The position numbers and the translations under genes were made by a program. The notes beneath the pieces are model-generated. The model saw only the letters and a list, made by a program, of their open reading frames with translations. It did no database searches and was not told the origin of the DNA. DNA of 64,000 nt from Pseudobythopirellula maris (GTDB lineage: Bacteria > Planctomycetota > Planctomycetia > Pirellulales > Lacipirellulaceae). Shown piece after piece: positions 47,361 through 63,368 of the stretch. The stretch is taken from NCBI RefSeq assembly GCF_007859945.1, contig NZ_SJPQ01000004.1, positions 248,001-312,000 of the forward strand. The letters run 5' to 3'. The stretch's first letter is position 1. Each line of letters opens with the position of its first letter.

Positions 47361-48704
47361 ATGGCAAGTCTAAGCAAAGAGAGGGGACGACCCCGCAAGT
47401 CAGGCCCCCGCCGTGACGGCTGGCGCGTGCTGGTGTTCGTCGACGGGGATCGCAAGACTATCCGACTGGGGGCGATACCCAGAAAACAGGCCGAGGCCAT
47501 GCTGCGGCATATCGAGGCCCTGGCGGCTTCGCTGCTGGATCACAGCGCCCCGCCAGAGGCCACGGCCCGCTGGCTTGCGGAGCTGGACGAGAAGATCAGA
47601 GAACGGATCGTGCGGGCCAGCCTGGCCCAGCCTCGGCATAAGCCCAGGGGCGTGACCGTGGGAGAGCTGATCGACCACTATAAGCGTCTTAAGTATCAGA
47701 GTGATGGGGCGGGGGGGTACGCTCAGGGCACGATCAACGTTCACGAAGCCGCCTTCGCGTCGATGCTCGGCCACTGGCCGGCCGATACGGTGGTTGCTGA
47801 TATTTCTGGCGGCGACTGCGACGACTTCGTCGACTGGATGAGCCAGAAGGGGCTCGCCGAGGCAACCATCCGGAAACGGTCTGCGATCGCTAAAAAGCTC
47901 CTGGGCTACGCGGTCAAGAAACGCTGGCTGGACCGGAACCCCTACGAAGATTCGGGCGTGAAGACTGCGAGCGTGGGCAATTCGGCCAGGCAGGTGTTCA
48001 TCCCGCCAGCGGATGCCCTGAAAGTCCTTCAAGAGTTGCCAGACACGCAATGGCGGCTGCTGTTCGTCCTGAGCCGATTCGGTGGCCTCAGGGTGGGCAG
48101 CGAGCCACGGCAATTGAAGATTGGCCACGTGAACGCCGCGGCCGGCACGCTGACCGTCCCAAGCCCCAAGACGAAGCGTTACCAGGGAAAGGCAGAACGA
48201 ATCATCCCGCTCTGGCCCGAGTTAGAGCGGCTTATCACCAAACGATTCCACGAAATGGAGGAAGGGGAGGAAATGCTGCTTCCGTTCCTGCGGGGCCGGA
48301 CAGACGCCTCCCTCCGAAAACCCATGTTCGCGGCCATCCAGCGGGCAGGCCTCCAACCGTGGCCGCGACTCTGGCACAACCTGCGAAGCTCACGGCAGAC
48401 GGAACTGCTGGGGCCGCACTACCGTTGCAACATGGTTGAAGTCTGCGCGTGGCTGGGCAACAGCGAGGCCGTGGCGAACCGGCACTACGTGCAGGCGACA
48501 GCCGACGGATTCTCGCGTGCGGCGCAAATTGCGGCGCTGCCAGAGACCGCATGGGGCGACAGCGAGCCCGAAGCGGTCGAAGGGCAGGGGGCCAAACGCC
48601 CTGTTATCGTCGCTCCTGCGCTGTCCGGCGGTTCCTCGCAGAAAAAAACGATAGCCGAGGCGGGACTCGAACCCGCACGAGGGTTACCCCCCACCGGATT
48701 TTAA
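47361..48704 (+). CDS. Tyrosine recombinase/integrase (element 1)
   Basis: 447 residues; ATG 47361 with AGGA five bases upstream. N-terminal arm-binding segment (KSGPRRDGWRVLVFVDGDRK), SAM-like core-binding domain (about 95-190), then the catalytic domain: Arg in FGGLRVGSEP, Lys in SPKTKRYQGK, H-x-x-R in LWHNLRSSRQTEL, and the nucleophile Tyr in VANRHYVQ. These cut and rejoin att sites. The last 17 residues (IAEAGLEPARGLPPTGF) are read from the antisense strand of the tRNA-Leu remnant, and its stop TAA lies in the anticodon loop. The gene directly adjoins the right repeat, as expected for an element integrated in a tRNA. Confidence 0.92.
   Translation: MASLSKERGRPRKSGPRRDGWRVLVFVDGDRKTIRLGAIPRKQAEAMLRHIEALAASLLDHSAPPEATARWLAELDEKIRERIVRASLAQPRHKPRGVTVGELIDHYKRLKYQSDGAGGYAQGTINVHEAAFASMLGHWPADTVVADISGGDCDDFVDWMSQKGLAEATIRKRSAIAKKLLGYAVKKRWLDRNPYEDSGVKTASVGNSARQVFIPPADALKVLQELPDTQWRLLFVLSRFGGLRVGSEPRQLKIGHVNAAAGTLTVPSPKTKRYQGKAERIIPLWPELERLITKRFHEMEEGEEMLLPFLRGRTDASLRKPMFAAIQRAGLQPWPRLWHNLRSSRQTELLGPHYRCNMVEVCAWLGNSEAVANRHYVQATADGFSRAAQIAALPETAWGDSEPEAVEGQGAKRPVIVAPALSGGSSQKKTIAEAGLEPARGLPPTGF
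48651..48672. repeat. Right attachment-site repeat (tRNA-Leu 3' end)
   Basis: Identical to 34010-34031 over 22 bases, same orientation. It is the 3' end of the tRNA-Leu half at 48652-48709. With the left copy it brackets element 1. Confidence 0.75.
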
Positions 48705-48915: not shown

Positions 48916-49087
48916 CTTTATCTGGCAACGACTTACGTCGATTGGCCCCCCGGCCCCTTGGGCCACCTGACACGGATCTGACACACCGTGGCGCCCGTGT
49001 GGCGGTCACATTGGTGGCCCGTCATTGGGCAGTAGGAAAGGATGATTGCGTCACAAGAACGCTCTCTTTCGCTCCCACTGCCCCCAA

Positions 49088-50320
49088 ATGGCCAGCCTCG
49101 AAATCGACCCCCGTTCGGGTCGCTACCGTGTCCGGTTCCGCTACGCCGGCCAGGAGTACAAGCGGTCGCTCCGCACCAAAAGCCGACCCGTCGCCGCCGC
49201 CTCTCTCGGGCAGGTAGAGGAAGCTTTGCGGATGATCGAGATGGGGCTGGTTGAGCTGCCCCAGGATGTGGAGGAGGGCGCTTTTATCGTCTCGGGGGCC
49301 CGGGTCCGGAAAGCCAGGCGGCAGCCGTCAAAAGTGCAGACGTTGGACGACCTGTTCCGCGTCTATCAAGCTGAACTCCCGACCGGGTCGAAGGAGCCGC
49401 GGACGCTCGCCGGCGAGCGTTTGCACTTCAAGCACCTGCTCCGGCACTTGAAACCCAAGACCCGGCTGGCCGCGATCACGCCACGCACCGTGCAGGGTTA
49501 CGTCGAACTCCGCTCCAGAGACCAGTACGCCAAGCGATCAATCACCCCCGACACGATCAAGAAAGAGATCACGACCCTCCGGTTGGTGTGGAACTGGGCG
49601 AAGCGGCAAGAGTACGTCGAGAACCCGCCACCGATCAGCCACGTGATCTACCCGAAGCGGGATGAGAAGCCCCCCTTCCAGACCCTGGCGGAGATCCAAC
49701 GGGCCGTCAGCGGGGGCAAGTTGTCGAAGGCTCAAGAAGCCGCTCTTTGGGAATCGCTCTTCCTAACCCGCCCCGAGGTCGATCGCCTGCTCGACCACGC
49801 CTCAAAGCAGGCCGGGCTTCCGTTTGTCTACCCGATGTTCGTGCTCGTGGCCCACACCGGGATGCGACGCAGCGAGCTGCTCCGCGCCGAGAAGGCCGAC
49901 TTTGACTTTGAGGGCCGCACCATCTTAGTCCGAGAGAAAAAGCGTTCGCGCAAGCACGCCCTGAGCTTCCGCCGGGTTCCGATGACGAATCTGCTGGGCC
50001 GGGTGTTCAAGCAGTACTTCGCGGAACACCCATCCGGTCCGTACGCACTGACGCGAGACAATGATCAGCCGTTGACCACCGATGCAGCCGATCACTTCTT
50101 CGAGGTCGCCTTGAAAGGTTCGGCTTGGCAGGCGGTCCGGGGCTTCCATGTCTTCCGGCACTCTTTTGCGTCGAACGCCATGGCAGAGGGCATCGACCAA
50201 CGCATGATCGACGCCTGGATGGGCCACCAAACCGAAGAGATGCGGCAACGCTACCGTCACTTGGCCCCGACCCAGCAGCAAGCCGCTATCGACGCCGTGT
50301 ACCGAGACGAAGCGTCTTGA
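49088..50320 (+). CDS. Tyrosine recombinase/integrase (element 2)
   Basis: 410 residues from ATG 49088 (MASLEIDPRSGRYRVRFRYA); an upstream in-frame TTG-type start at 49046 is less likely. An arm-type N-terminal domain (YKRSLRTKSRPVAAASLGQV), core-binding domain (about 90-180) and a complete catalytic set: Arg in HTGMRRSELLRA, Lys near REKKRSRKH, H-x-x-R in FHVFRHSFAS, WMGHQT, and Tyr in RQRYRHL. It is only distantly similar to the other integrase in the window. The tRNA-His remnant upstream is its probable attachment site. Confidence 0.93.
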   Translation: MASLEIDPRSGRYRVRFRYAGQEYKRSLRTKSRPVAAASLGQVEEALRMIEMGLVELPQDVEEGAFIVSGARVRKARRQPSKVQTLDDLFRVYQAELPTGSKEPRTLAGERLHFKHLLRHLKPKTRLAAITPRTVQGYVELRSRDQYAKRSITPDTIKKEITTLRLVWNWAKRQEYVENPPPISHVIYPKRDEKPPFQTLAEIQRAVSGGKLSKAQEAALWESLFLTRPEVDRLLDHASKQAGLPFVYPMFVLVAHTGMRRSELLRAEKADFDFEGRTILVREKKRSRKHALSFRRVPMTNLLGRVFKQYFAEHPSGPYALTRDNDQPLTTDAADHFFEVALKGSAWQAVRGFHVFRHSFASNAMAEGIDQRMIDAWMGHQTEEMRQRYRHLAPTQQQAAIDAVYRDEAS

Positions 50321-50702: not shown

Positions 50703-53513
50703 CTGAAGCAGCTCGTCGCCGGGGGTACCAACGGAAACCGTTGGTATAAGGTCAACCTCCACGCACACGGCCTCGGGCATTCCGCCAAGGACATGGTCTC
50801 CGAGGCACGTAAGGCCGAGATCGACATTCTTGCGATCACGGACCATCAGACATTCGACGCCTACGACAAAGTCTACGCGGAGTCGAAGACCGAAGGCCGA
50901 GCACTGACCGTGCTGCCAGGCATCGAGATCACGACTCACGAAGGCGTCCACATCATCGCGATCTTCCCGCAGGAATACTCTGCGAGGCAACGCGAGCACT
51001 TCATCGGCTGGCTGGAGATCCCCGGCACTGGCGATACCAAGATCGGCTCGAAGAAAACGGTCGATGAGGTACTCCAGCATATCGTGGAAGAGGGCGGAAT
51101 CGTCGTTGCCCCGCACCCGTGGACGCCGAATATTGGCTTCCTGTCCTGTTCGCCGAAGATACAGACTCGCGTTAATTGGCTAGAGACCGGACACATCAAG
51201 CTAATTCAGGTCAAACAGGACGCGCACGCCAACAAGGTCACTTACATCGGCCACGACAAGGACGGCACTTGGGTCAACCGCTACGTCCTCAGCTCGGCGT
51301 CACCTAAGCAGATAGCAGAGAGCACCTACTGCTTGGCTCCGTTCAACCGTAGCGACGCACACAAGCCGTCAGAAATTGGCGACGGATGTTCGTGGTTCCG
51401 CATGGAAGCTCCGACCATCGACGGCCTACGACAGGTGGCTTGCGAGCCTCGCACCCGTATCTCACTAGATGAACCGCTGGCTGCCGTCCACGATTGCATC
51501 CTCGCCGTCCGTGTCCACGGCGGGTACTGCAAGGATCAGACGTTCTGCTTTAACGAATCGCTGAACTGCATTGTCGGTGACAACCACGCCGGCAAGTCAG
51601 CCGTCTTCGACTTTATCCGGTTCGTGCTCGGCCACACTGAAGACCCGACCGACAGTAATTCGCGGCTGACACTGCTGCGGCGCTTGGACAGTATCCTGCA
51701 GGCCGAAAACAAGGTCGAGCTGTTCTTGCGCTCCAACGGCGAGTACTACGTTGTCGAGCGTACGTTCCGACCAACTACGAACGGCAGGGACGTGACCGGC
51801 TGTTGCGACCTAGCGATTGCCTACGTGTACGACGAAGAAAACGAGAATTTAGAACCGGCAGACGACTTTTCCTTCCAGATCGAGGTCTACGAGCAGGGTC
51901 GGATCGGTCTCCTTCGCAGTGACATCGACAGGCAGCTGGAAATGCTCGACGAGTTCGCAGAACTCAACAGCACGAAGGCGAATCGCGATGAACTTTTCGG
52001 GAAGCTGACGACCAATGCCACTGCCCTGAAGCCGCTCAACGCTGAGCGTGAGACACTGAAGACCGAGATCGCAGCGCTCAAACGGCTGGAGGAGGAGCTG
52101 GAGGGCTTCAACGAGCAGCTGCCCGACGAAGCAACGGAAGGCGAATGGGGCAACGCGGTTGCCGTTGTGGATGGGATCACCGGCGCCGTGGAAACTATCA
52201 CACTCGCGGCAGCGCAAATCCCAGACCCCGCCGTCCCGAATGAGCTGGCCGACGAAGACGACGTACTGGTCCAGCTCTTCTCTCAATCGCTTCCGGCCGT
52301 ACCGGCTGAGAACGTAGCCGACCGGGATGCCATCGAGGCTTGGCGTGAAGACGCCCAGAAGGGTCTAAAAGAGATCGAGACCACCCGAGCGCAGCTGGTG
52401 GGTGCTATCAAGAAGCTCAGCGCTACTCATCAGTCGCATCTGAAGCCTTGGAAGGCGAAGCACGCCGATCACGAGAAAGAGATTGCCGAGCAACTGAAGA
52501 AGAGCGGCGTCGAATCACCGACCCAATTACGCCAACAGATCACGTCACACCGCGCGAAGATCCGCAAGATCAAGGAGAAGGATCAGCCCCGGCTGGGGAG
52601 CGTGGAGACGGAGATCAGCCGACTGGAGAATGAACGAGATACGCTGCGCACGCAACTGAAGGCCGCGAACACCACGATTTCGAAGACGCGCTCAGAAAAG
52701 GCCGAGGAACTGAACGGCACCTTCGATAAGAAGATCATCGTCAACGTGGAGGGGGGTGGCGACCAACGAGAATACCTTGAATCGCTGCGTGAAATCTGCG
52801 ACGAGATCACCAACCAATACCAGCGAATCCAGAAACGCGAACAGCACCTGCAAGCCATTGCTTCAAACGTGACACCGTTGGAGCTGGCCGAGGCTATCTG
52901 CAATGACGGCAAGGTTATCAGCCGATCTGGTTCGCCGTCGTTGACCGACTTGTGCGAGATCACCAAGAACACGCAGGAAGTGCTCTGTACGATTGGGTCC
53001 GACATCGAGTTAGTCAACAAGATAGAGATCGTTGACGTTCCCGATGTACCGCGCATCAAAGTCAAACGTGAGGGCGAAGAAACCTACGCGGATCTCGCCA
53101 CCGGGCTTTCACCGGGCGAGCAGAGCGCAGCTATCCTGACGCTGGCGCTTCAGACGCGATCGCGGCCCCTCATTGTTGATCAGCCGGAAGACGAGCTAGG
53201 TTACTCGTACGTCGTCAACCTGATCGTTCCCAAGATGCTGAGGGCGAAGTTCCTGCGGCAGCTGATCGTCGTCACCCACGTCGCCAACATTCCCGTCCTC
53301 GGGGATGCCGACTACGTGATCAAGCTGGAGAATCGGCCGCACGCCGATACCGGCCGTCAGTGCGTCGTCGTTGCCGAGGGCTGCTTCGAGCGATCAGAGG
53401 TCACAACCGCCGTGGTGCAGCTCGAAGGTGGTGAGCAAGCGTTCCGGTTTAGACAGCACCGATACTCGCTCACAAGGCTGAGCGAAGTCGTGCCAGCCAA
53501 GGCCGTGCAATAG
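50703..53513 (+). CDS. PHP-domain ATPase (TrlF-like), SMC/RecN-type
   Basis: About 936 residues. The N-terminal PHP phosphoesterase fold has metal motifs HAHG (about 50757-50768), DILAITDHQTFDAYDK, LPGIEITTHEGVHIIAIFP and GIVVAPHPW. Next come an ABC/SMC-type ATPase head with Walker A VGDNHAGKS, a long coiled coil (about 380-740), and the head's second half with signature GLSPGEQSAAILTLAL and Walker B PLIVDQPEDEL. TrlF-like proteins join a PHP nuclease or phosphatase to an ATPase. The frame opens at 50667; its only start-like codon before ATG 50793 is CTG 50703, and starting at 50793 would remove HAH, so the true start is unsure and a frameshift is possible. Confidence 0.85.
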   Translation: MKQLVAGGTNGNRWYKVNLHAHGLGHSAKDMVSEARKAEIDILAITDHQTFDAYDKVYAESKTEGRALTVLPGIEITTHEGVHIIAIFPQEYSARQREHFIGWLEIPGTGDTKIGSKKTVDEVLQHIVEEGGIVVAPHPWTPNIGFLSCSPKIQTRVNWLETGHIKLIQVKQDAHANKVTYIGHDKDGTWVNRYVLSSASPKQIAESTYCLAPFNRSDAHKPSEIGDGCSWFRMEAPTIDGLRQVACEPRTRISLDEPLAAVHDCILAVRVHGGYCKDQTFCFNESLNCIVGDNHAGKSAVFDFIRFVLGHTEDPTDSNSRLTLLRRLDSILQAENKVELFLRSNGEYYVVERTFRPTTNGRDVTGCCDLAIAYVYDEENENLEPADDFSFQIEVYEQGRIGLLRSDIDRQLEMLDEFAELNSTKANRDELFGKLTTNATALKPLNAERETLKTEIAALKRLEEELEGFNEQLPDEATEGEWGNAVAVVDGITGAVETITLAAAQIPDPAVPNELADEDDVLVQLFSQSLPAVPAENVADRDAIEAWREDAQKGLKEIETTRAQLVGAIKKLSATHQSHLKPWKAKHADHEKEIAEQLKKSGVESPTQLRQQITSHRAKIRKIKEKDQPRLGSVETEISRLENERDTLRTQLKAANTTISKTRSEKAEELNGTFDKKIIVNVEGGGDQREYLESLREICDEITNQYQRIQKREQHLQAIASNVTPLELAEAICNDGKVISRSGSPSLTDLCEITKNTQEVLCTIGSDIELVNKIEIVDVPDVPRIKVKREGEETYADLATGLSPGEQSAAILTLALQTRSRPLIVDQPEDELGYSYVVNLIVPKMLRAKFLRQLIVVTHVANIPVLGDADYVIKLENRPHADTGRQCVVVAEGCFERSEVTTAVVQLEGGEQAFRFRQHRYSLTRLSEVVPAKAVQ

Positions 53514-53670: not shown

Positions 53671-55152
53671 TCACTCCGTCGTATCGACCCCGCAACCGAC
53701 GGCTCGCTCTAGCTGAGCGATGGCCCCGGCGAGCGTGGCTTTGGTCCGGGCGACTTGTAGTTCGATCATCAGCAGTTCGGTGAAGCCGGCGGTGACCTCA
53801 CCGAAATCGACGAGGCGGCCCCGGTAGTCGGCCGAGGCGAGTTCGAGAGCCCGTTTAGATCGGGGCATCAGGCGATTCTCGTACAGGTCGAGTTGCTGCT
53901 GGGCTGCCTGCGCCTGTTCGTTGTAGCGGCGGATGCGGCGGAATGTGTCGTCGCGTGTATCGGCGTACTCGCGTGACGCGGCCGCGAAGGCAGCCGACGC
54001 TTCGTTAATCCCCGCTCGGATCCGATCTCGCCAAATCGGCAGCGTCAGCCCCACCGCGAAGCTGATGTTGTCGTGCCCGTTGGCGACTGGGGAGATGGCG
54101 TCGCTCTCGGTGATGGTTTGCCAGCCAACTCCGAACGTGAAATCAGGACGCTTCTGCAAGCAGGCAAGCTCTTGCTTCTGCCGATCACGTGAGATCGCCC
54201 ATCGCTGCTCGTTCAGGCTGGGGTTGTATTCGAGCGCGAGTGCGAACAAGGCCTCACGTTGTTGCTCAACGCCGGTGAGGTCGATGGTCTCAATCGGCTC
54301 GATGCCTTGCGCGCTCGGCTGCTGCGTCAGGGCGGCGAGGTCGGCCTGTGCGAGCGCTTTTTGCTCGGTCAGGCTGATCAACTTCGAGTCGAGATTGTCA
54401 ACTTGCAGTGAAGCACGCAGCACGTCCTGCTGACTCCCGCCGGCGGCGTTTCGGGCCTCGGCGAGCTTGACCAGTTCGATCGCGATCTCACGGTTCCGCT
54501 CGGTAATCCCGATCGCGCGATCGGCGAACCAGAGTTCGTAGTAGGCAAGCCGGACCAGCTCTTCGATCTCCAGCTCGGCCTGCCTGATCTTCGTTGCGGC
54601 GATTTGGGCCTCCCTTTCGGCGATCGCCCCTTTCACTTCGCGCTTAGCTGGCCACGGGTACTTCTGCGACAGCGACATCGTGTTGCCAGCCCGACCGCCC
54701 GCTGTTTGCAGAGCCTGATCCGAGATCGGAAAGAATGTGTTTGACAGCATCGGATCATCGAGCGAACGGGCTTGCTCCGGCCGCCAGGTTGCCGAGGCGT
54801 ACCGTGCTCGGGCCGCTCTCACGCGGGGGTGCTGAACGATTGCTACGGCGACCAGTTGCTCGACCGGTTGTCGGGCCGGGGGGGTTGGCGTTGAGCTGAG
54901 CCGAATCACCCCGGGCTGGACCGGTTCTAGGGTAGGTCCCCCATCTGGGAGGCTTACAGCCACCGCCTCATCCCGTTCCGCCGCGGACTCGAAATCAACG
55001 AGGACCGCCCGATGGTCAGCAGATGGCGTGGTGGGCTCGACGCAGGCGTCCCCTTGCCCCAGGGGCGCACGGCAGCCAGCCAAGAGTGAGAGTCCCGCGA
55101 CGACGATTCCTAGCGTGGATAGGCTCCACACGCCCTGTTCTTGCTTATCCAT
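53671..55152 (-). CDS. TolC/CusC-type outer-membrane efflux lipoprotein
   Basis: 493 residues. Lipobox LLAGC places the lipid-modified Cys at about 27, as in CusC/CzcC. The rest is two outer-membrane-efflux repeats with long helices: VAIVQHPRVRAARARYASATW, IRQAELEIEELVRLAYYELWF, RLMPRSKRALELASADYRGRLVDFGEV and QVARTKATLAGAIAQLERAVG. It would form the trimeric outer-membrane channel for the adaptor and pump encoded from 55984. It is transcribed away from them, sharing the region at 55153-55278 that carries a CsoR-type operator. Confidence 0.9.
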   Translation of the reverse strand: MDKQEQGVWSLSTLGIVVAGLSLLAGCRAPLGQGDACVEPTTPSADHRAVLVDFESAAERDEAVAVSLPDGGPTLEPVQPGVIRLSSTPTPPARQPVEQLVAVAIVQHPRVRAARARYASATWRPEQARSLDDPMLSNTFFPISDQALQTAGGRAGNTMSLSQKYPWPAKREVKGAIAEREAQIAATKIRQAELEIEELVRLAYYELWFADRAIGITERNREIAIELVKLAEARNAAGGSQQDVLRASLQVDNLDSKLISLTEQKALAQADLAALTQQPSAQGIEPIETIDLTGVEQQREALFALALEYNPSLNEQRWAISRDRQKQELACLQKRPDFTFGVGWQTITESDAISPVANGHDNISFAVGLTLPIWRDRIRAGINEASAAFAAASREYADTRDDTFRRIRRYNEQAQAAQQQLDLYENRLMPRSKRALELASADYRGRLVDFGEVTAGFTELLMIELQVARTKATLAGAIAQLERAVGCGVDTTE

Positions 55153-55206: not shown

Positions 55207-55250
55207 TTGCTGTGGTGGGGCATCCTGCCGATAATACCCCCCAGAGGTAT
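55207..55250 (+). promoter_or_regulatory. Promoter with CsoR-type operator
   Basis: TTGCTG (55207-55212), 17 bp, then GATAAT (55230-55235) form a sigma70-type promoter on the plus strand. ATACC (55234-55238) and GGTAT (55246-55250) form an inverted repeat around a C-rich centre, matching the known shape of CsoR copper-repressor operators (GC-tract flanked by TAC/GTA arms), and it overlaps the -10 box. A CsoR gene lies at 63081-63368, so metal-responsive repression is a reasonable inference. Confidence 0.6.
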
Positions 55251-55278
55251 CTGCGTTACCAACCTATCGACCGGTCCG

Positions 55279-55806
55279 TTGATCAAGTCCCGTGCAATCC
55301 GTTCGGCCGTCAAGCTCTTCCTGATCGGAATGCTAGCGTTGCCGCTGCACGGTCTTCCGCGAGCACACGGCTCGACTTGCACTACCAAAGCAGGCGTCGA
55401 TGCGACTTGTGCCGGCTGCGGCTCCTGTCCCGTGACGCAGGTAGGTCAGCGTTGTGGCTGTTGCTCGAAAATGCGGAAGCCTGCCGTCACCCGACCGCCC
55501 AAGGCGACTTCGGGATGCTGCAGTAAGAGGGACAGCGGCCAACAGGAGAGCCGCTCATCCGACGCCGGAAGTGACTCTGGTTCTGTTGGCGAGGGTTGCT
55601 TGTGCGTGAAGCCCGCCGAACCCGCTTTTCCGGAGAGCGACGCCCGACCCGTCTTGAAGCGGCTTGCCGAACAGCTGCAAGGGGCGGTCGTTCGGCTACC
55701 AAGTCGATGGCTAGCCGATTCATCTGAGCGGCGTGAGTATCTCATCGATCCAGCCGTCGAGCCGTCCAACGGACGCTTAGCTCGGCTTGGCGTTTGGCGT
55801 ATTTGA
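55279..55806 (+). CDS. Cys-rich secreted protein of the metal cassette
   Basis: 175 residues from TTG 55279, chosen because it lies downstream of the promoter and gives a signal peptide (IKSRAIRSAVKLFLIGMLALPLHG); ATG 55330 is the alternative and an upstream frame overlaps the TolC gene start. The mature part has 11 cysteines clustered in CAGCGSCP, CGCCSK, GCCSK and CLC, which is metallothionein-like in density. The C-terminal half is without Cys (LAEQLQGAVVRLPSRWLADSS). It may bind copper outside the cytoplasm. No family recognised. Confidence 0.6.
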   Translation: MIKSRAIRSAVKLFLIGMLALPLHGLPRAHGSTCTTKAGVDATCAGCGSCPVTQVGQRCGCCSKMRKPAVTRPPKATSGCCSKRDSGQQESRSSDAGSDSGSVGEGCLCVKPAEPAFPESDARPVLKRLAEQLQGAVVRLPSRWLADSSERREYLIDPAVEPSNGRLARLGVWRI

Positions 55807-55983
55807 GTCGCTAGCGCCCCAGGTGCGCGCCGAGCCATCCGCCGGCGCAACGACGACACGCCTTTTCTGGGCGGTCGTATCACAGGGAAGCCTTCAGTTG
55901 GCTGCTGCGCGCCGCCACGAATCCGTTGGTCACGATCGAGAACTTGATCGTGACCTGCTCTCCCGTCTCGTGAGACCTTACGC

Positions 55984-57660
55984 ATGAAAACCGCTAACGA
56001 GTTCGTCCGTGGCGAGACGCAATCATCGTCGCGACCCGGGGCCATGCGTAGCTGGGTTGCCCGCACGACGAGGCAGGCCGGCATCGCGGTTGGTGCGATG
56101 GTGCTCTGCCTCTTCTTAGTCGGCTTGAGCCAACGCATTGGATGGATCAGGAGCGCCGACGGGACAGCGTCGGCGCCCGAATCCGTTGAGGCGGCGACGG
56201 CCGAGTTCACCTGCCCAATGCACCCGGAGATACGCCAAGACGCCGAAGGCAAGTGTCCGATCTGCGGGATGGCGTTGGTCCCTGTAGCGGTCGCGTCCAG
56301 TAAAGAAACTCCTGAGGTTAAGGCCGACGCCGAGAGCGAGCGCTACATCTGCCCCATGATGTGCACGCCACCGCAGGGCGAACCGGGCAAGTGCCCGGTC
56401 TGCGCCATGGATTTGGTGCTCGCCGAAGCGGGGGGGGGCGGGGAGCGATCGGTTTCGATCGACGCCGCGGCGCGACGCATCCTCGGCATCCGCACCGCCA
56501 CGGTTCAGCGCAAGCCGGCCTACCGCACGATCCACAGCATCGGCCAGCTCGCCTATGACCAGGAGCGGATGGCGACAATCGCGGCCTACGTTGATGGTCG
56601 CTTAGAAGAGATGTACGCCGAGTACGAGGGCGTCGAAGTGGCCAAAGGTGACGACTTGGCGCTCGTCTACAGCCCGGCGCTCTACTCGGCCCAGGTTGAG
56701 TACCTGTCGAGCCTTGATACGCCGGCTCTTTCGGTGCTTGGCAATCGGAACGACAAGTTGAGCGAGGTCGCTCAGGACAACCTGCAAGAGTTGGGGATGA
56801 CCCCGTCGCAGATCGATCGGCTGCTGACGACACGGCAAGCGGATAAGCGACTCCGAATCACCTCGCCGATCACTGGCACCGTTGTCAAGCGTTTCAAGGT
56901 CGAAGGCGACTACCTCAAGACGGGCGAGCCGATCTACCGTGTCGTTGATCTCTCAACCGTCTGGTTGATGCTCGACCTCTATCCAAGCGACGCCGCCCGG
57001 GTCCGGTTCGGCCAAGAAGTCCAGGCCGAAGTCCAATCCTACCCCGGCGAGGTTTATACCGGACGGGTTGCCTTTATCGACCCGGTGGTCAGCGACAAGA
57101 CCCGGACAGTCGGCGTGCGGGTTGAGCTGTCGAACTTCGATGGCCGCCTCAAGCCGGGCGACTACGCCACCGCGACGATCCGCGTCCCGGCGATCCCACT
57201 TGATGAGGTCTATGACCCGGCCCTCGCCGGCAAGTGGATCAGCCCGATGCACCCCCAGATCGTCCGCACCGAGCCGGGGGTCTGCCCGATCTGCCAGATG
57301 GACCTCGTCCCGACGACGCGCTACGGCTACGCGGCGCAGCCGCCAGCAGATGACGGGGAGATCGTCGTGCCGCGGAGCGCTGTGTTGATGGCTGGCGACA
57401 ACTCCGTCGTTTATGTCGAGACCAAGCCGGGCGAATTCGAGCTGCGGGAGGTCACGATCGCGGCCCTCACGGATGAGTCGGCCGTCCTGCTCGACGGGTT
57501 AACGGTGGGCGACACGGTGGCGACCGACGGCAACTTCCTCATCGACTCCCAGATGCAGCTCGGTGGCAAGCCTTCTTTGATGGACCCGAGCCGCGGCGAA
57601 GACAAGAACGAGGCCGACGCCCCCATGCCTGCCATGACGGAGGCTCCTCATGCTCACTAA
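55984..57660 (+). CDS. RND efflux adaptor with three heavy-metal-binding motifs (CusB-type)
   Basis: 558 residues. An N-terminal membrane anchor (about 31-50) precedes two heavy-metal-binding motifs: FTCPMHPEIRQDAEGKCPIC (about 75-94) and YICPMMCTPPQGEPGKCPVC (about 121-140). The HlyD/CusB body follows (barrel-sandwich hybrid and helical hairpin), and a third motif, ISPMHPQIVRTEPGVCPICQ (about 419-438), lies between the beta-barrel and membrane-proximal domains, an unusual place. CusB adaptors carry metal from the periplasm to the RND pump. The gene overlaps the pump gene by 11 bp. Confidence 0.92.
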   Translation: MKTANEFVRGETQSSSRPGAMRSWVARTTRQAGIAVGAMVLCLFLVGLSQRIGWIRSADGTASAPESVEAATAEFTCPMHPEIRQDAEGKCPICGMALVPVAVASSKETPEVKADAESERYICPMMCTPPQGEPGKCPVCAMDLVLAEAGGGGERSVSIDAAARRILGIRTATVQRKPAYRTIHSIGQLAYDQERMATIAAYVDGRLEEMYAEYEGVEVAKGDDLALVYSPALYSAQVEYLSSLDTPALSVLGNRNDKLSEVAQDNLQELGMTPSQIDRLLTTRQADKRLRITSPITGTVVKRFKVEGDYLKTGEPIYRVVDLSTVWLMLDLYPSDAARVRFGQEVQAEVQSYPGEVYTGRVAFIDPVVSDKTRTVGVRVELSNFDGRLKPGDYATATIRVPAIPLDEVYDPALAGKWISPMHPQIVRTEPGVCPICQMDLVPTTRYGYAAQPPADDGEIVVPRSAVLMAGDNSVVYVETKPGEFELREVTIAALTDESAVLLDGLTVGDTVATDGNFLIDSQMQLGGKPSLMDPSRGEDKNEADAPMPAMTEAPHAH

Positions 57661-60600
57661 TCTCGTGAGGTTCTGCGTCAAAGAAGCCTGGCTGGTTGTC
57701 CTGCTGGCGGTGGGGTTGAGCGTCTACGGCTGGTACAGCTACCGGACCGTGCCGATCGATGCGATCCCGAACATCGGCGAGAACCAAGTCATCGTCCTAA
57801 CGCCTTGGCCGGGACGTTCACCGAAGGACATTGAGGACCAAGTCACCTATCCGCTGAGTGTCTCGTTGCTTGCCGTGCCGGGCGCGGAGAGCGTGCGCGG
57901 CAAGAGTATGTTCGGCTACTCGTTCGTCCAAGTCACCTTCAAGGACTCGGTCGATTTCTACTGGGCGCGTAGCCGAGTCTCCGAACAGCTGGGATCGGCC
58001 GCCGGCCAACTTCCCGATAGCGTCGTTCCTCAGCTCGGACCCGACGCAACCGGACTCGGGCAAGTCTACTACTACGTGCTGCGCCCACCCCCAGAGGGCA
58101 TGAGCCTCGCCGAGTTGCGGTCGCTTCAGGACTTCGTCGTGAAGTTTGAGTTGCAAGCGGTGGAGGGGGTCAGCGAAGTCGCTTCGATAGGCGGCTACGT
58201 GCGTCAGTATCAGATCGAGGTCGATCCCGACCGGCTACGATTCCACGGTGTCGCGTTGGATCAGGTGGTTTCGGCGGTGCAGGGATCGAACGTCGATGTC
58301 GGCGCTAAGACCGTCGAGACCAGCGGCATGGAGTTCATCGTCCGTGGCAAAGGATTCCTGGGCGGCGACGGTGACGCAACCAAGGCGATCCGCGACATTG
58401 AGCAGACCGTCATCCGCCAGCAAGACGGGGTGCCGCTGAAGGTGGAGGACGTGGCTCGGGTGCAGTTGGGGCCCGACTTCCGCCGGGGTGCGCTCGACTA
58501 CAACGGGACCGAGGCGGTCGGTGGCGTGGTCGTGATGCGGTACGGCGAGAACCCGCGGCAGGTAATCGACCGCATCAAGAAGCGGATCGAGCAGATCACG
58601 CCCGCCCTGGACGGCGTCACGATCCACGGCGTTTACGATCGGACCGGGTTGATCGATGAAACGATCGGCACCCTGACGACCGCCCTCCGCGAAGAAATCC
58701 TCATCACGGGGGTCGTGATCCTGCTCTTCCTGCTGCACATCCGCAGCAGCTTCATTGTCGCCGCCACGCTGCCCGTCGCGGTGCTGTTGGCGTTCGTCGC
58801 AATGAAGACCCTTCACATCGACGCCAACATCATGTCGCTTGCGGGCATCGCGATCGCGATCGGAACGATGGTCGATATGGGGATCATCGTCTCAGAGAAC
58901 ATCTACCAGCACCTCGCCGAGTGGGAGCAGGCGGGCGAAGAGGGGGGCTCTGAACGCCGCAGCCAAGTCATCGCTGACGCCGCGACCGAGGTCGCCCCGG
59001 CGGTCGTGACCGCTGTGACAACCACCATCGTCAGCTTCCTGCCGATCTTCTTCCTGACGGGCCGCGACTACAAGCTTTTCAGCCCGCTAGCTTGGACCAA
59101 GACCTTCGCCATCGCCGCGGCGTTGGTCGTCGCTGTGACCTTGGTGCCGGCGCTCGCCCGACTCTTGCTCCGCAGCGCTCGCTGGCCACGCTCTGCGAAC
59201 CTCGCCGTGGCTTTGGTCGGCGGCGTTCTGGGCGGTTTGCTGGTTTCTCTGCTATGGACCGAGGCGATTGAGGCCGAGTACGGCGTCGCACCGCTTATCG
59301 CAGTCTCCTTATCCGTCGCCTTAGGCGGGCTCGGTGGCTACCTGCTCACTAGGGAGCGTATCCGACCGATCGAGGAGAGCTTCGTCAGTCGCGCAATCGT
59401 GAGAGCGTATGTGCCCACGCTCAACCTTTTCCTACGGAATAAAGCCGCGTTCCTGGTGGTCCCGGTCTTGATCATGGTCGTTGGGCTGGGGGGTTGGATC
59501 GGACTGCCAACCGTGATGCGGCCTTTCGAGCGGATCGCCACGGTCCTCGGCGTGAAACCTAACGAATTGCCGGGGTACGTCGATCTAAAACACACTTTTA
59601 CCGGGCTAAAGAGTGACGACTGGATCGCGCTAGACGAGGGGAGTTGGTTCTACATGCCGACCCTTTACCCAGCCGCCAGCTTCAGTCAAGCGATGCAGGT
59701 GCTCCAAGCTCAGGACGTGCTCATCGGGCAGATCCCCGAAGTCCAGGACGTGCTCGGCAAGATCGGCCGCGTCGAGTCGGCCCTCGATCCGGCGCCCGCC
59801 GCGATGGTCGAGACCTACGTCATGCTCAAGCCGAAGGACCAATGGCGTGAGGGCGTCACTTCCCGCGACGTGTGGGACGAGATCAACGCGGCCGCGACGC
59901 TGCCGGGCGTAACACCCGCCAGTCCGCTTCAGCCAATCGAGGGCCGTGTCGTGATGCTCCAGAGCGGCATCAAGGCGCCGATGGCGATCCGCATCTACGG
60001 CGACACGCTCGCGGAGCTGGCCGACGCGGCGGTCTCGATCGCTGAGCACTTGCGTGGCTCGCCGTATGTGAACCCCGCGACGGTGAACCCCGACATCGTG
60101 CTGGGTAAGCCCTACATCGAGTTCACGGTCGATCGCGCCGCCGCCGCTCGCTACGGCATGTCGGTGCAGATGGTCAACCAGGTCGTCGAGACAGCGCTCG
60201 GCGGCATGAATCTGATCAAGACCGTCGAGGGCCGTGAACGCTACCCGGTCCGCATCCGCTACCGCCGCGACCTGCGGGAACGCATCGACCAGTTGGAGAG
60301 CCTGCCGGTCGTCACCCATGGCGGGCAGGTCATCCCGCTTGGCGAGCTGGCGAAGCTAGAAACTACGTGGGGGCCCGGCGCCATCAACAGCGAGAACGCC
60401 CGATTGGTCGCGCACGTCGCGTTCGCTTCGAGCGGTGTGACGGGTGACCTCGAATCGGTCGCAGCGATTGAGAAGTCGCTGCGTGACGCGATGGCTTTGC
60501 CTGAGAACGATCCCTCGCGGCTGGCGTTGCCGGCCGGCTACTCGCTCGAAGCGGTCGGCAGTTTCCGCAACCAGATCGAAGCGAACCAGCGGCTGATCTG

Positions 60601-61165
60601 GCTAGTGCCCCTGGTAGTGTTGATCAACCTGCTGGTGATCTATCTCCAGTTCCGCCACGTGCCGATCACGCTCGCGGTCTTCGCCGGCATCCCGGTGGCG
60701 TTTGCCGGCGGGATGATCGCCCTGGCGTTCGCCGGCGCTGAAATGAACACCGCTGTCTGGGTCGGCTTCATCGCTCTGTTCGGCATCGCGGTGGACGACG
60801 GGGTGGTGGTCGCCACCTACCTCGATCAGGTCTTCAGTCGCGTGAGGCTCAACAGCGTGCAGGACATCCGAACCGCGACGATCGAGGCAGGCATGCGCCG
60901 CATCCGACCCTGCCTGATGACAACGGCAACCACGGTCCTGGCGCTCGTGCCGGTGCTCCTATCCACCGGGCGAGGCGCCGATGTTGCTCACGCGATGGCG
61001 TTGCCGGTGTTTGGCGGCATGATCGTCGAGCTGGTGACGCTGTTTGTCGTTCCGGTCGTCTACTGCGGCTACAAGGAAATGAAGATGCAGATGGGCCTTC
61101 CGGATCGGCACTGGGCCGGCACCGAGTCGGCCAAAGAAGTCTCAGAACTCGTGCCAACGGCGTAA
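57650..61165 (+). CDS. Heavy-metal RND efflux pump (CusA/CzcA-type)
   Basis: 1171 residues. N-terminal VPIDAIPNIGENQVIVLTPW and QVTYPLSVSLLAVPGAESVRG are CusA-like. The proton-relay segment GTMVDMGIIVSENIYQHL in helix 4 has the conserved Asp of the HME-RND class. Two large periplasmic loops and a repeat of the helical half are present, with a conserved end (MALPVFGGMIVELVTLFVVPVVY). An extra stretch at about 512-580 (ANLAVALVGGVLGGLLVSLL, LIAVSLSVALGGLGGYLLT) adds two hydrophobic segments not present in E. coli CusA (about 1050 residues). It probably exports Cu(I)/Ag(I) or another soft metal. Confidence 0.94.
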   Translation: MLTNLVRFCVKEAWLVVLLAVGLSVYGWYSYRTVPIDAIPNIGENQVIVLTPWPGRSPKDIEDQVTYPLSVSLLAVPGAESVRGKSMFGYSFVQVTFKDSVDFYWARSRVSEQLGSAAGQLPDSVVPQLGPDATGLGQVYYYVLRPPPEGMSLAELRSLQDFVVKFELQAVEGVSEVASIGGYVRQYQIEVDPDRLRFHGVALDQVVSAVQGSNVDVGAKTVETSGMEFIVRGKGFLGGDGDATKAIRDIEQTVIRQQDGVPLKVEDVARVQLGPDFRRGALDYNGTEAVGGVVVMRYGENPRQVIDRIKKRIEQITPALDGVTIHGVYDRTGLIDETIGTLTTALREEILITGVVILLFLLHIRSSFIVAATLPVAVLLAFVAMKTLHIDANIMSLAGIAIAIGTMVDMGIIVSENIYQHLAEWEQAGEEGGSERRSQVIADAATEVAPAVVTAVTTTIVSFLPIFFLTGRDYKLFSPLAWTKTFAIAAALVVAVTLVPALARLLLRSARWPRSANLAVALVGGVLGGLLVSLLWTEAIEAEYGVAPLIAVSLSVALGGLGGYLLTRERIRPIEESFVSRAIVRAYVPTLNLFLRNKAAFLVVPVLIMVVGLGGWIGLPTVMRPFERIATVLGVKPNELPGYVDLKHTFTGLKSDDWIALDEGSWFYMPTLYPAASFSQAMQVLQAQDVLIGQIPEVQDVLGKIGRVESALDPAPAAMVETYVMLKPKDQWREGVTSRDVWDEINAAATLPGVTPASPLQPIEGRVVMLQSGIKAPMAIRIYGDTLAELADAAVSIAEHLRGSPYVNPATVNPDIVLGKPYIEFTVDRAAAARYGMSVQMVNQVVETALGGMNLIKTVEGRERYPVRIRYRRDLRERIDQLESLPVVTHGGQVIPLGELAKLETTWGPGAINSENARLVAHVAFASSGVTGDLESVAAIEKSLRDAMALPENDPSRLALPAGYSLEAVGSFRNQIEANQRLIWLVPLVVLINLLVIYLQFRHVPITLAVFAGIPVAFAGGMIALAFAGAEMNTAVWVGFIALFGIAVDDGVVVATYLDQVFSRVRLNSVQDIRTATIEAGMRRIRPCLMTTATTVLALVPVLLSTGRGADVAHAMALPVFGGMIVELVTLFVVPVVYCGYKEMKMQMGLPDRHWAGTESAKEVSELVPTA

Positions 61166-61215
61166 GGAAGCGTCCGCGGCGATCAATCTAAGAAGTGAAC
61201 CTAGGGAGAGAAACG

Positions 61216-62352
61216 ATGAGAGTCCTCAATTACTTGGTGCTCGCTTGCGGTCTTGCAATCGCGGTACCTGCATTTGCTCAGCATGATCAAGCAACGCACG
61301 GGTCCGGCCACAAGATGGCTGCGCAACAACCACCGGTCGCTCCCCCAGCACCAGCCGTTGCCGATGACCAAGGCCCTCACGGCGGTCGGCTGGCCGACGT
61401 CGGCGCGATGCAGATCGAAACCGTGATTGCTCCAAGCGGAATTCGACTCTTCGCCTATACCGAGCAGAAGAATCCGCTTGATCTACGCGATGTCCGTGGC
61501 GTGGCGACGCTTCAGGTCCAGGGCGACGCTAAGCGTTATCGGTACGACCTTTTCGCTGAGACACGCTCCGACGGCTCGGCCGAAGCGTTGGCGGTGGCGG
61601 TTGATCTCTCGCCGATCGCCGGTCGTCAAATTGAACTCGACGTCCAGCTCGCCGGCCTCTCCGGTCCGCAAGATCAGCCGGTCCGATTCCAAACGACCGC
61701 GGTTGCCCCGAGGACCGAAGCCCAGCAGGTAGCGGCCGCCATCGCCGAGCAGAGGGTCTGCCCCGTCAGCGGCCAACCGTTGGGTTCGATGGGCAAGCCG
61801 ATCCCGGTGCAAGTCGGTGATCAAACGGTCTACGTTTGCTGCGCGGGCTGCATTGATGCCGTCAAAGACAACCCGTCTCAGTACGTGATCGGCAAGCCCG
61901 ATCTCAAGGTCGCGCCGGCCACGGAAGCCGACACGGCGGCGATCGCGGCCCAGAAGCTCTGCCCCGTGATGGACGAGCCCCTCGGCTCAATGGGGACGCC
62001 GCTCAAGGTCACCGGCTTGCCGCGTGATGTCTATCTCTGCTGCAAAGGATGTCTGAAGTTCTTGGAAAAGGAGCCGCAGAAGTACCTTGCCAAGCTGCCC
62101 ACTGCGAGCGGTACGGCGAAGCCAGAGATCACCAAGGCGACCGCGGCGGACGCCCCATTTGTAGCCGCCCAAAAGCTCTGTCCCGTGATGGATGAGCCGC
62201 TCGACGCGATGGGCGGGCCCTACCGGACCGTTGTTGAAGGACGGGTGGTTTACCTGTGCTGCCCAGGCTGCGCGAAGAAGCTGCACGCCAACCCCCAGGG
62301 CTACCTCCAGAAGCTAGCCCAACAAGGCGTCGAACCGCCGCGGGTTCGATAA
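61216..62352 (+). CDS. Periplasmic protein with three YHS-like Cys repeats
   Basis: 378 residues from ATG 61216, with AGGGAGAG five bases upstream. Signal peptide (1-22), a His-rich spacer (HDQATHGSGHK), a beta domain (about 55-170) and then three similar units: CPVSGQPLGSMG...YVCCAGC (about 182-212), CPVMDEPLGSMG...YLCCKGC (about 249-279) and CPVMDEPLDAMG...YLCCPGC (about 322-352). Each has a CP start, an SMG/AMG turn and a C-C-x-x-C block, like YHS/heavy-metal domains. Expected to bind metal and pass it to or store it for the pump. It follows the pump gene by 50 bp. Confidence 0.8.
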   Translation: MRVLNYLVLACGLAIAVPAFAQHDQATHGSGHKMAAQQPPVAPPAPAVADDQGPHGGRLADVGAMQIETVIAPSGIRLFAYTEQKNPLDLRDVRGVATLQVQGDAKRYRYDLFAETRSDGSAEALAVAVDLSPIAGRQIELDVQLAGLSGPQDQPVRFQTTAVAPRTEAQQVAAAIAEQRVCPVSGQPLGSMGKPIPVQVGDQTVYVCCAGCIDAVKDNPSQYVIGKPDLKVAPATEADTAAIAAQKLCPVMDEPLGSMGTPLKVTGLPRDVYLCCKGCLKFLEKEPQKYLAKLPTASGTAKPEITKATAADAPFVAAQKLCPVMDEPLDAMGGPYRTVVEGRVVYLCCPGCAKKLHANPQGYLQKLAQQGVEPPRVR

Positions 62353-63080: not shown

Positions 63081-63368
63081 TCAGTCGGTTACGCGGCCAT
63101 ATTTCTGGAAGAGGGAGGCTAGCTCTTCGAGCATTGCATCGCGCTTCGCCTCGTCGTCTCCTTCGAGGGCGCTCTGGATGCAGGTTTGGACATGCGTCTC
63201 TAGGATCATCCGGCCCACTTTGCTGAGGGCGCCGTTGGCGGCGGCGATCTGGGTGAGTGTCTCGACGCAGTAGGCGTCTTCGTCAATCATCCGCTGAACG
63301 GCCGAGACTTGCCCCGCGATCCGCCGCAGGCGATTGCCGATCTTCGTCTTGTCGTCGTCGGAGAGCAC
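63081..63368 (-). CDS. CsoR/RcnR-family metal-responsive repressor
   Basis: 95 residues, all-helical DUF156 family: DDKTKIGNRLRRIAGQVSAVQRMIDEDAYCVETLTQIAAANGAL, then ETHVQTCIQSAL. The CsoR ligand set Cys-His-Cys is present: Cys34 in DAYCVET, His59 in ETHVQ and Cys63 in QTC, which in CsoR binds Cu(I) and releases the operator. It is transcribed convergently with the GNAT gene. The operator-like site at 55234-55250 could be its target. Confidence 0.92.
   Translation of the reverse strand: MLSDDDKTKIGNRLRRIAGQVSAVQRMIDEDAYCVETLTQIAAANGALSKVGRMILETHVQTCIQSALEGDDEAKRDAMLEELASLFQKYGRVTD

Follow-up and report, generated by a model that had tools for sequence, protein, structure and literature searches.

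The cysteine-rich gene at 55279–55806 (+) of the 64-kb stretch of DNA analysed here (the window), for which the working name cysR is used, appears to be the CsoR-repressed first gene of a cusBA operon, and its product is probably an exported leader that senses extracytoplasmic copper during translation. From the comparison of homologous loci, we put the probability of this reading at roughly 55%.

Upstream of cysR, and divergent from it, lies a gene for a CusC-like outer-membrane efflux protein (53671–55152, −). Downstream follow cusB (55984–57660, +), encoding a membrane fusion protein with three heavy-metal-binding domains, and cusA (57650–61165, +), encoding an RND pump of the CusA/CzcA family. 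The cassette also holds an acetyltransferase-like ORF downstream of cysR, and a gene for a protein with three TRASH-like metal-binding motifs (61195–62352, +), which was found 3′ of cusA in nearly all cassettes examined. The sequence just past the end of the window encodes a permease and a Csp/DUF326-type copper storage protein, for which the PDB contains four-helix Csp relatives; also encoded there are a multicopper oxidase, another TolC-like protein and a P1B-type ATPase. The comparison set comprised 50 cassettes from 41 genomes. A preliminary description of this DNA had proposed a search for homologues beside cus genes; they are indeed found there, with cysR between a divergent cusC and cusB–cusA in nearly all 50 loci. 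In every one of them cysR is 5′ of cusB, except in L142, where cusB went undetected, and the gap between cysR and cusB ranges from about 40 to 560 nt. Two integrase ORFs (47361–48704 and 49046–50320) and an SbcC-like ATPase ORF (50793–53513) directly adjoin the copper cassette, which may lie on a mobile island.

The TTG at 55279 is most likely the start of cysR, because homologues begin there (with ATG, GTG or TTG) and share M-x-K-S-R-x-x-R-x-A-V-x-L. Read from this codon, the product would be a protein of 175 residues with a signal peptide-like N-terminus, a 66-residue C-terminal part and 11 cysteines, at positions 34, 44, 47, 50, 59, 61, 62, 80, 81, 107 and 109. The cysteine cluster C34...CxxCxxC...CxCC...CC (residues 34–81; 55378–55521, +) is conserved at 85–100% in 48 homologues. 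Six of the 11 cysteines are invariant among these and the other five are present in 85–98%, with total cysteine counts of 11–18 across the homologues. Comparison of cysR with its nearest relative gave a dN/dS of 0.22 over 522 sites, indicating purifying selection. No Pfam or NCBIfam model matched CysR, metallothionein families in both libraries included; its ten nearest homologues matched no informative model either, and a search of the PDB for relatives of the family found none (best E = 0.85). The preliminary description had reported 11 clustered cysteines, a signal peptide and no recognised family, and had made the conservation of the cysteines a point on which its reading could fail. The ORF is as described, the lack of a family was confirmed for Pfam and NCBIfam, and the cysteines proved to be conserved. 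Among the 396 genomes searched in the order, 45 have a cysR homologue, nearly all of them in two bacterial families. Apart from the window, a sample of 294 genomes from the phylum gave a single weak case, and a profile search of genome contigs with a subset of the alignment found only Aeoliella straminimaris.

The export signal, the 11 conserved cysteines and the lack of CusF make it plausible that CysR is an extracytoplasmic copper binder, and the arrangement of its cysteines is compatible with multi-Cu(I) binding as in metallothioneins. The main rival to the leader starts from this point: CysR would be secreted and, in the manner of a metallothionein, buffer Cu(I) or act as its chaperone, replacing CusF by binding copper in the periplasm and passing it to CusB/CusA, with CsoR as the sole regulation. 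We regard this account as plausible, though less likely than the leader, and CysR may act in both ways. In its favour are the CxxC, CxCC, CC and CxC motifs of an exported protein, CsoR control common to the copper storage protein gene, and the position of cysR, which occupies the place of cusF in cusCFBA. CusF of Escherichia coli is likewise a small exported protein encoded just 5′ of cusB; it binds copper through Met, His and Trp residues in an OB fold, whereas CysR is cysteine-rich. The CusF family (PF11604) had no match in CysR and none in 21 genomes, in a search that detected the E. coli control. Bacterial metallothioneins and Csp proteins resemble CysR in their many cysteines in CxC, CC and CxCC motifs; they differ from it in that CysR matches no family and that Csp, which has the same CsoR operator in the window genome, is encoded by a separate gene. 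Set against a buffer is an AlphaFold model of CysR that contains no folded C-terminal domain, a model built from a two-sequence alignment and of low confidence throughout (mean pLDDT 48).

In front of cysR, the preliminary description had placed a −10 box overlapping an ATACC-N7-GGTAT inverted repeat, and this arrangement was confirmed. A pattern scan of the 64-kb window located the exact repeat ATACCCCCCAGAGGTAT at 55234–55250 (+). This predicted CsoR operator, ATACC-CCCCAGA-GGTAT, is conserved in homologous loci, and its first two bases are the last two of the −10 element GATAAT (55230–55235, +). The −35 element TTGCTG (55207–55212, +), read by eye, lies 17 bp further upstream. A strict sigma-70 scan did not call a promoter at 55207–55235; we retain it because the −35/−10 layout is conserved in homologous loci, with TTGaac/TTGnnn 17 bp 5′ of the −10. 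Throughout the bacterial family of the window, which we take to be the Lacipirellulaceae (that of Aeoliella), the operator overlaps the −10, and GATAAT is kept even in loci that lost the operator. The second bacterial family conserves TTGAAC-17-GATAC at the cysR promoter and has the operator about 8 bp further downstream, just after the −10.

Alternatively, the repeat might have arisen by chance or belong to a different regulator, with CsoR inactive here, and one such site per 64-kb window is not rare: at least one match with at most one mismatch occurred in 25% of shuffled windows. Composition alone predicts about two sites per genome, which is also the number found, the exact pattern occurring at two places only in the whole 5.07-Mb genome, before cysR and before csp. 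What makes the operator meaningful is therefore its placement and conservation and not its count. In 34 of the 50 cassettes (23 distinct sequences), the 150 bp upstream of the cysR homologue contain an exact operator, compared with an expectation of about 7e-5 per 150 bp, and across these 34 loci the arms are fixed while the centres vary. The second genomic site (L003:13255–13271), 1.25 kb past the window end and 10 kb from the first, directly precedes the gene for the Csp-type copper storage protein, after which come genes for an amino-acid permease and CsoR. The identical operator type was also found before csp, multicopper-oxidase and P1B-ATPase genes. CsoR type 2 operators, such as those of Streptomyces lividans copZA/csoR, have a common TAC-X9-GTA core, and the copZA1 operator contains ATACC-N7-GGTAT (PMC3902906). 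The same core is present at 55234–55250, although the planctomycete centres, unlike those of S. lividans, are often not G/C tracts and the position relative to the −10 shifts.

CsoR itself, which the preliminary description had assigned to the cassette, is encoded at 63081–63368 (−; PF02583, E = 5e-27), some 8 kb from the cysR operator. Its nearest relative in the PDB is the S. lividans repressor, and residues C34, H59 and C63 align with the copper ligands of 4adz and 4m1p, giving the Cys-His-Cys pattern of a copper-type CsoR. The operator precedes cysR in 27 of the 29 genomes with CsoR and in 1 of the 12 without it (27 genomes with both, 2 with CsoR alone, 1 with the operator alone and 11 with neither; Fisher 2.8e-7). 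The three exceptions, G023 with an operator and no CsoR found and two genomes with CsoR and no operator, would fit a chance match or another regulator; the conserved arms with varying centres, the co-occurrence with CsoR and the sites before csp and other copper genes make that explanation most improbable. The CsoR-operator reading of the preliminary description is strongly supported by the same observations together with the TAC-X9-GTA match, and we infer that CsoR binds at 55234–55250. The operator-less cassettes (L019–L022, L024, L114, L130–L132 and L137) come mostly from genomes without CsoR, and in several of them the leader gene and its GATAAT element persist; a scan of a few ORFs flanking such cassettes gave no clear candidate for a different regulator. 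Genomes that have neither CsoR nor the operator keep the cysR protein, often its promoter and mostly the motif after its stop codon, which fits a control independent of CsoR.

The C-terminal part of CysR is conserved in length and, apart from its end, hardly in sequence. Its last CxC (C107-L-C109; 55597–55605, +) is 100% conserved and stands 66 residues before the C-terminus; the corresponding distance is 65–68 residues in 47 of 48 distinct homologues (SD 0.9), whereas the spacing between CxCC and CxC varies from 26 to 100 residues (a span of 74; SD 14). Most positions between the last CxC and the tail are near 3 bits of entropy, with almost no indels. The tail, LGVWRI and the stop codon in the window (55786–55806, +), has the consensus SQRxLC[VI]WR[IL]-stop, in which W is invariant, Q is present in 96% and C in 90% of the 48 homologues; in the window species the otherwise conserved Q167 and C171 are replaced by L and G. 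At one locus (L138:6099–6662, −) the tail is duplicated, reading LCIWRIWRI-stop instead of LCIWRI-stop, and the CxC distance is 70. The tail was also considered as a synonymous-site-constrained region, for which support was weak, and was not kept as one.

A docking domain would account for the constant length and terminal motif too: on this view CysR would have a small folded C-terminal domain of low sequence conservation, docked through LCVWRI on CusB/CusA, and cusB does adjoin cysR in nearly all loci. Near-random sequence over about 50 residues would, however, be unusual for a domain, and two other sets of cysteine-rich proteins described below (CysR2 and a third set) keep the length with a different sequence. 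This account would also make the motif after the stop codon an unrelated operon-internal element and so leave it unexplained, and we consider it unlikely.

That motif belongs to a conserved element at 55811–55831 (+), recognised by comparison of homologous loci and containing TGCGCGC (55824–55830). TGCGC occurs 13–40 nt past the stop in 37 of 50 cysR loci; for the other ORFs of these loci the count is 10 of 515 (Fisher 1e-37). Over the whole genome, the combined pattern of tail and motif occurs at five places, one of which is cysR. In the second bacterial family, TGCGC is the 5′ side of a hairpin that starts about 14 nt after the stop and has a mean folding energy of −12.5 kcal/mol, compared with −6.5 kcal/mol for shuffled sequence. 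For 14 aligned sequences, 85% of cells in the helix pair, against 39–61% when it is slid; the covariation score lies above all 500 shuffles, a number that does not amount to a probability since the 14 sequences are related. The hairpin partner of TGCGC is not the same between families, and Rfam contains no family for the element. Elsewhere, at L084:2549–2662, Rfam microRNA models matched both strands below their gathering scores; this feature is unrelated to the post-stop element and is probably a long inverted repeat. Within the gap between cysR and cusB of the window, an inverted repeat, GGTCACGATC-N8-GATCGTGACC (55928–55955, +), is largely kept in the sister genome. This 10-bp hairpin is absent from loci other than those of the window species and its sister, and for this reason it is not taken as central.

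Were CysR a buffer, the hairpin after its stop codon could be an mRNA stabiliser by which the first gene is expressed above the pump, and a hairpin in that position can indeed shield the upstream mRNA. Left unexplained by a buffer are a length fixed to about one residue with free sequence, a tail ending exactly at the stop, and a nucleotide motif after the stop that is common to protein families of low similarity. The spacing, the tail and the post-stop element, none of which figured in the preliminary description, suggest a regulatory leader, rather than a CysR that only binds copper. A fixed length of free sequence, a tail at the stop and then a nucleotide element at fixed range would together suit a leader that works as a nascent chain; translation pausing, copper binding and control of cusBA by CysR are inferred.

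In CsoR systems generally, Cu(I) releases the repressor from DNA. CsoR on ATACC-N7-GGTAT would here cover the promoter, which Cu(I) would free, and the nascent CysR chain would pass through Sec. A stretch of 65–70 residues is about the length required to span the ribosome tunnel and the translocon. With the ribosome at the stop codon and the LCVWRI tail in the exit tunnel, a CxC lying 66–70 residues back would reach the far side of the translocon. Copper bound at this CxC might alter the duration of a ribosome pause, and the pause might act on the RNA element 14–28 nt after the stop and, through it, on cusBA expression, in either direction and possibly by attenuation, Rho or mRNA stability. 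In such a scheme CsoR would respond to copper in the cytosol, and the leader to the extracytoplasmic copper that CusCBA exports; CysR may, once released, bind copper as well. Against a leader it must be said that 11–18 cysteines, and up to 26 in CysR2, exceed what a sensor needs. The two deviating tail residues of the window protein, the wide variation of the cysR–cusB gap, the change of hairpin partner between families and the small size of the 14-sequence helix alignment also speak against it.

Two exported leaders of the DUF2946 family, CruR and CutF, head copper operons, and in these the spacing between CXXC and RAPP is conserved and both motifs are required (PMC9426467, PMC9973294). CysR shows a conserved distance of the same type, from a cysteine motif to the C-terminus, and the analogy is one of working and not of membership in DUF2946. 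No Pfam match to DUF2946 was obtained up to E = 10 in 11 members of the CysR family, and a RAPP or proline-rich C-terminal motif is absent from CysR, the tail of which is LC[VI]WR[IL]-stop. Like CysR, CruR of Bordetella pertussis (bp2923; PMC9426467) is exported and encoded by the first gene of a copper operon, with a long intergenic region after it, and in both proteins a conserved spacing separates a cysteine motif from a conserved motif at the C-terminus. CruR is a DUF2946/RAPP protein with 45 residues between CXXC and RAPP that represses an uptake operon via Rho (PMC9426467), whereas CysR matches no Pfam family, ends in LCVWRI, has its CxC 66 residues from the end and 11 or more cysteines, and is preceded by a CsoR promoter. 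CutF of Rhodobacter capsulatus is Sec-exported, carries a cysteine motif and a conserved C-terminus and heads a copper-handling operon, and its translation and export are coupled to expression of the next gene (PMC9973294), as is proposed here for CysR. CutF has a proline-rich tail and a stem-loop that hides the cutO Shine-Dalgarno sequence (PMC9973294), neither of which was found at the cysR loci, and there is no detectable homology between CutF and CysR. A search of the cysR–cusB gaps revealed no conserved structure that would cover the start of cusB, so masking of the Shine-Dalgarno sequence as in CutF is unsupported.

If the leader reading is right, metal sensing outside the cytoplasm by a ribosome-bound protein arose outside DUF2946 as well, with a different tail and ruler length and in a phylum in which copper regulation has been little studied. 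It would also explain how a cytosolic sensor, CsoR, is combined with control of a pump for periplasmic copper, and a fixed distance with free sequence would provide a sequence rule to find leaders that are missing from profile libraries. Even if CysR is a buffer, the analysis defines a CsoR regulon of the order Pirellulales as well as conserved, unannotated families of exported cysteine-rich proteins whose genes head cus operons.

Other unannotated cysteine-rich families at the head of cus operons resemble CysR in the spacing (66–70 residues), in the tail and, for the most part, in the post-stop motif. Two further genomes contain a second cus cassette downstream of csp–csoR, headed by a different cysteine-rich exported protein, CysR2, relatives of which occur in 23 of 396 genomes from several families of the order. 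The CysR2 genes (L120:5447–6022, −; L126:6367–6927, −; and those at L150–L169 and L175–L180) are unannotated and encode 15–26 cysteines; most precede cusB or a TRASH gene, and their products end in LCRFTL or similar. When measured in the same way as for CysR, and after the rule had been noticed there, all 19 CysR2 proteins had their last CxC 67–70 residues before the C-terminus. Of the 19 CysR2 genes, 17 have TGCGC 13–40 nt past the stop, against 10 of 515 other ORFs (Fisher 3e-23). The mean folding energy after the stop is slightly below that of shuffled sequence (−7.3 versus −6.5), so that after CysR2 the sequence motif is common and a compact hairpin is without support. A profile comparison of CysR with CysR2 gave a probability of 51%, and the two may be distant homologues.

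Whether at least three such planctomycete families of exported cysteine-rich proteins make up a new class of copper-sensing leaders gating cus pumps is, in our estimate, an evenly balanced question. The proposed ruler would run from a CxC over 66–70 free residues to a stop-codon tail of the form LC-x-[WF]-x-[IL]. Together with an RNA element after the stop, it would make pump expression depend on extracytoplasmic copper, on top of CsoR or instead of it. A third set of cysteine-rich exported proteins, from the same loci as CysR2 (L158, with its stop at position 88 on the − strand, L176 and L183), ends in QxILCxWLI, has a CxC 67 residues from the end and TGCGC after the stop. In L098, from a more distant member of the phylum, an ORF with eleven cysteines also has its CxC 67 residues from the end, and in further ORFs from another order or class the distance from CxC to the terminus is 66–68 residues.
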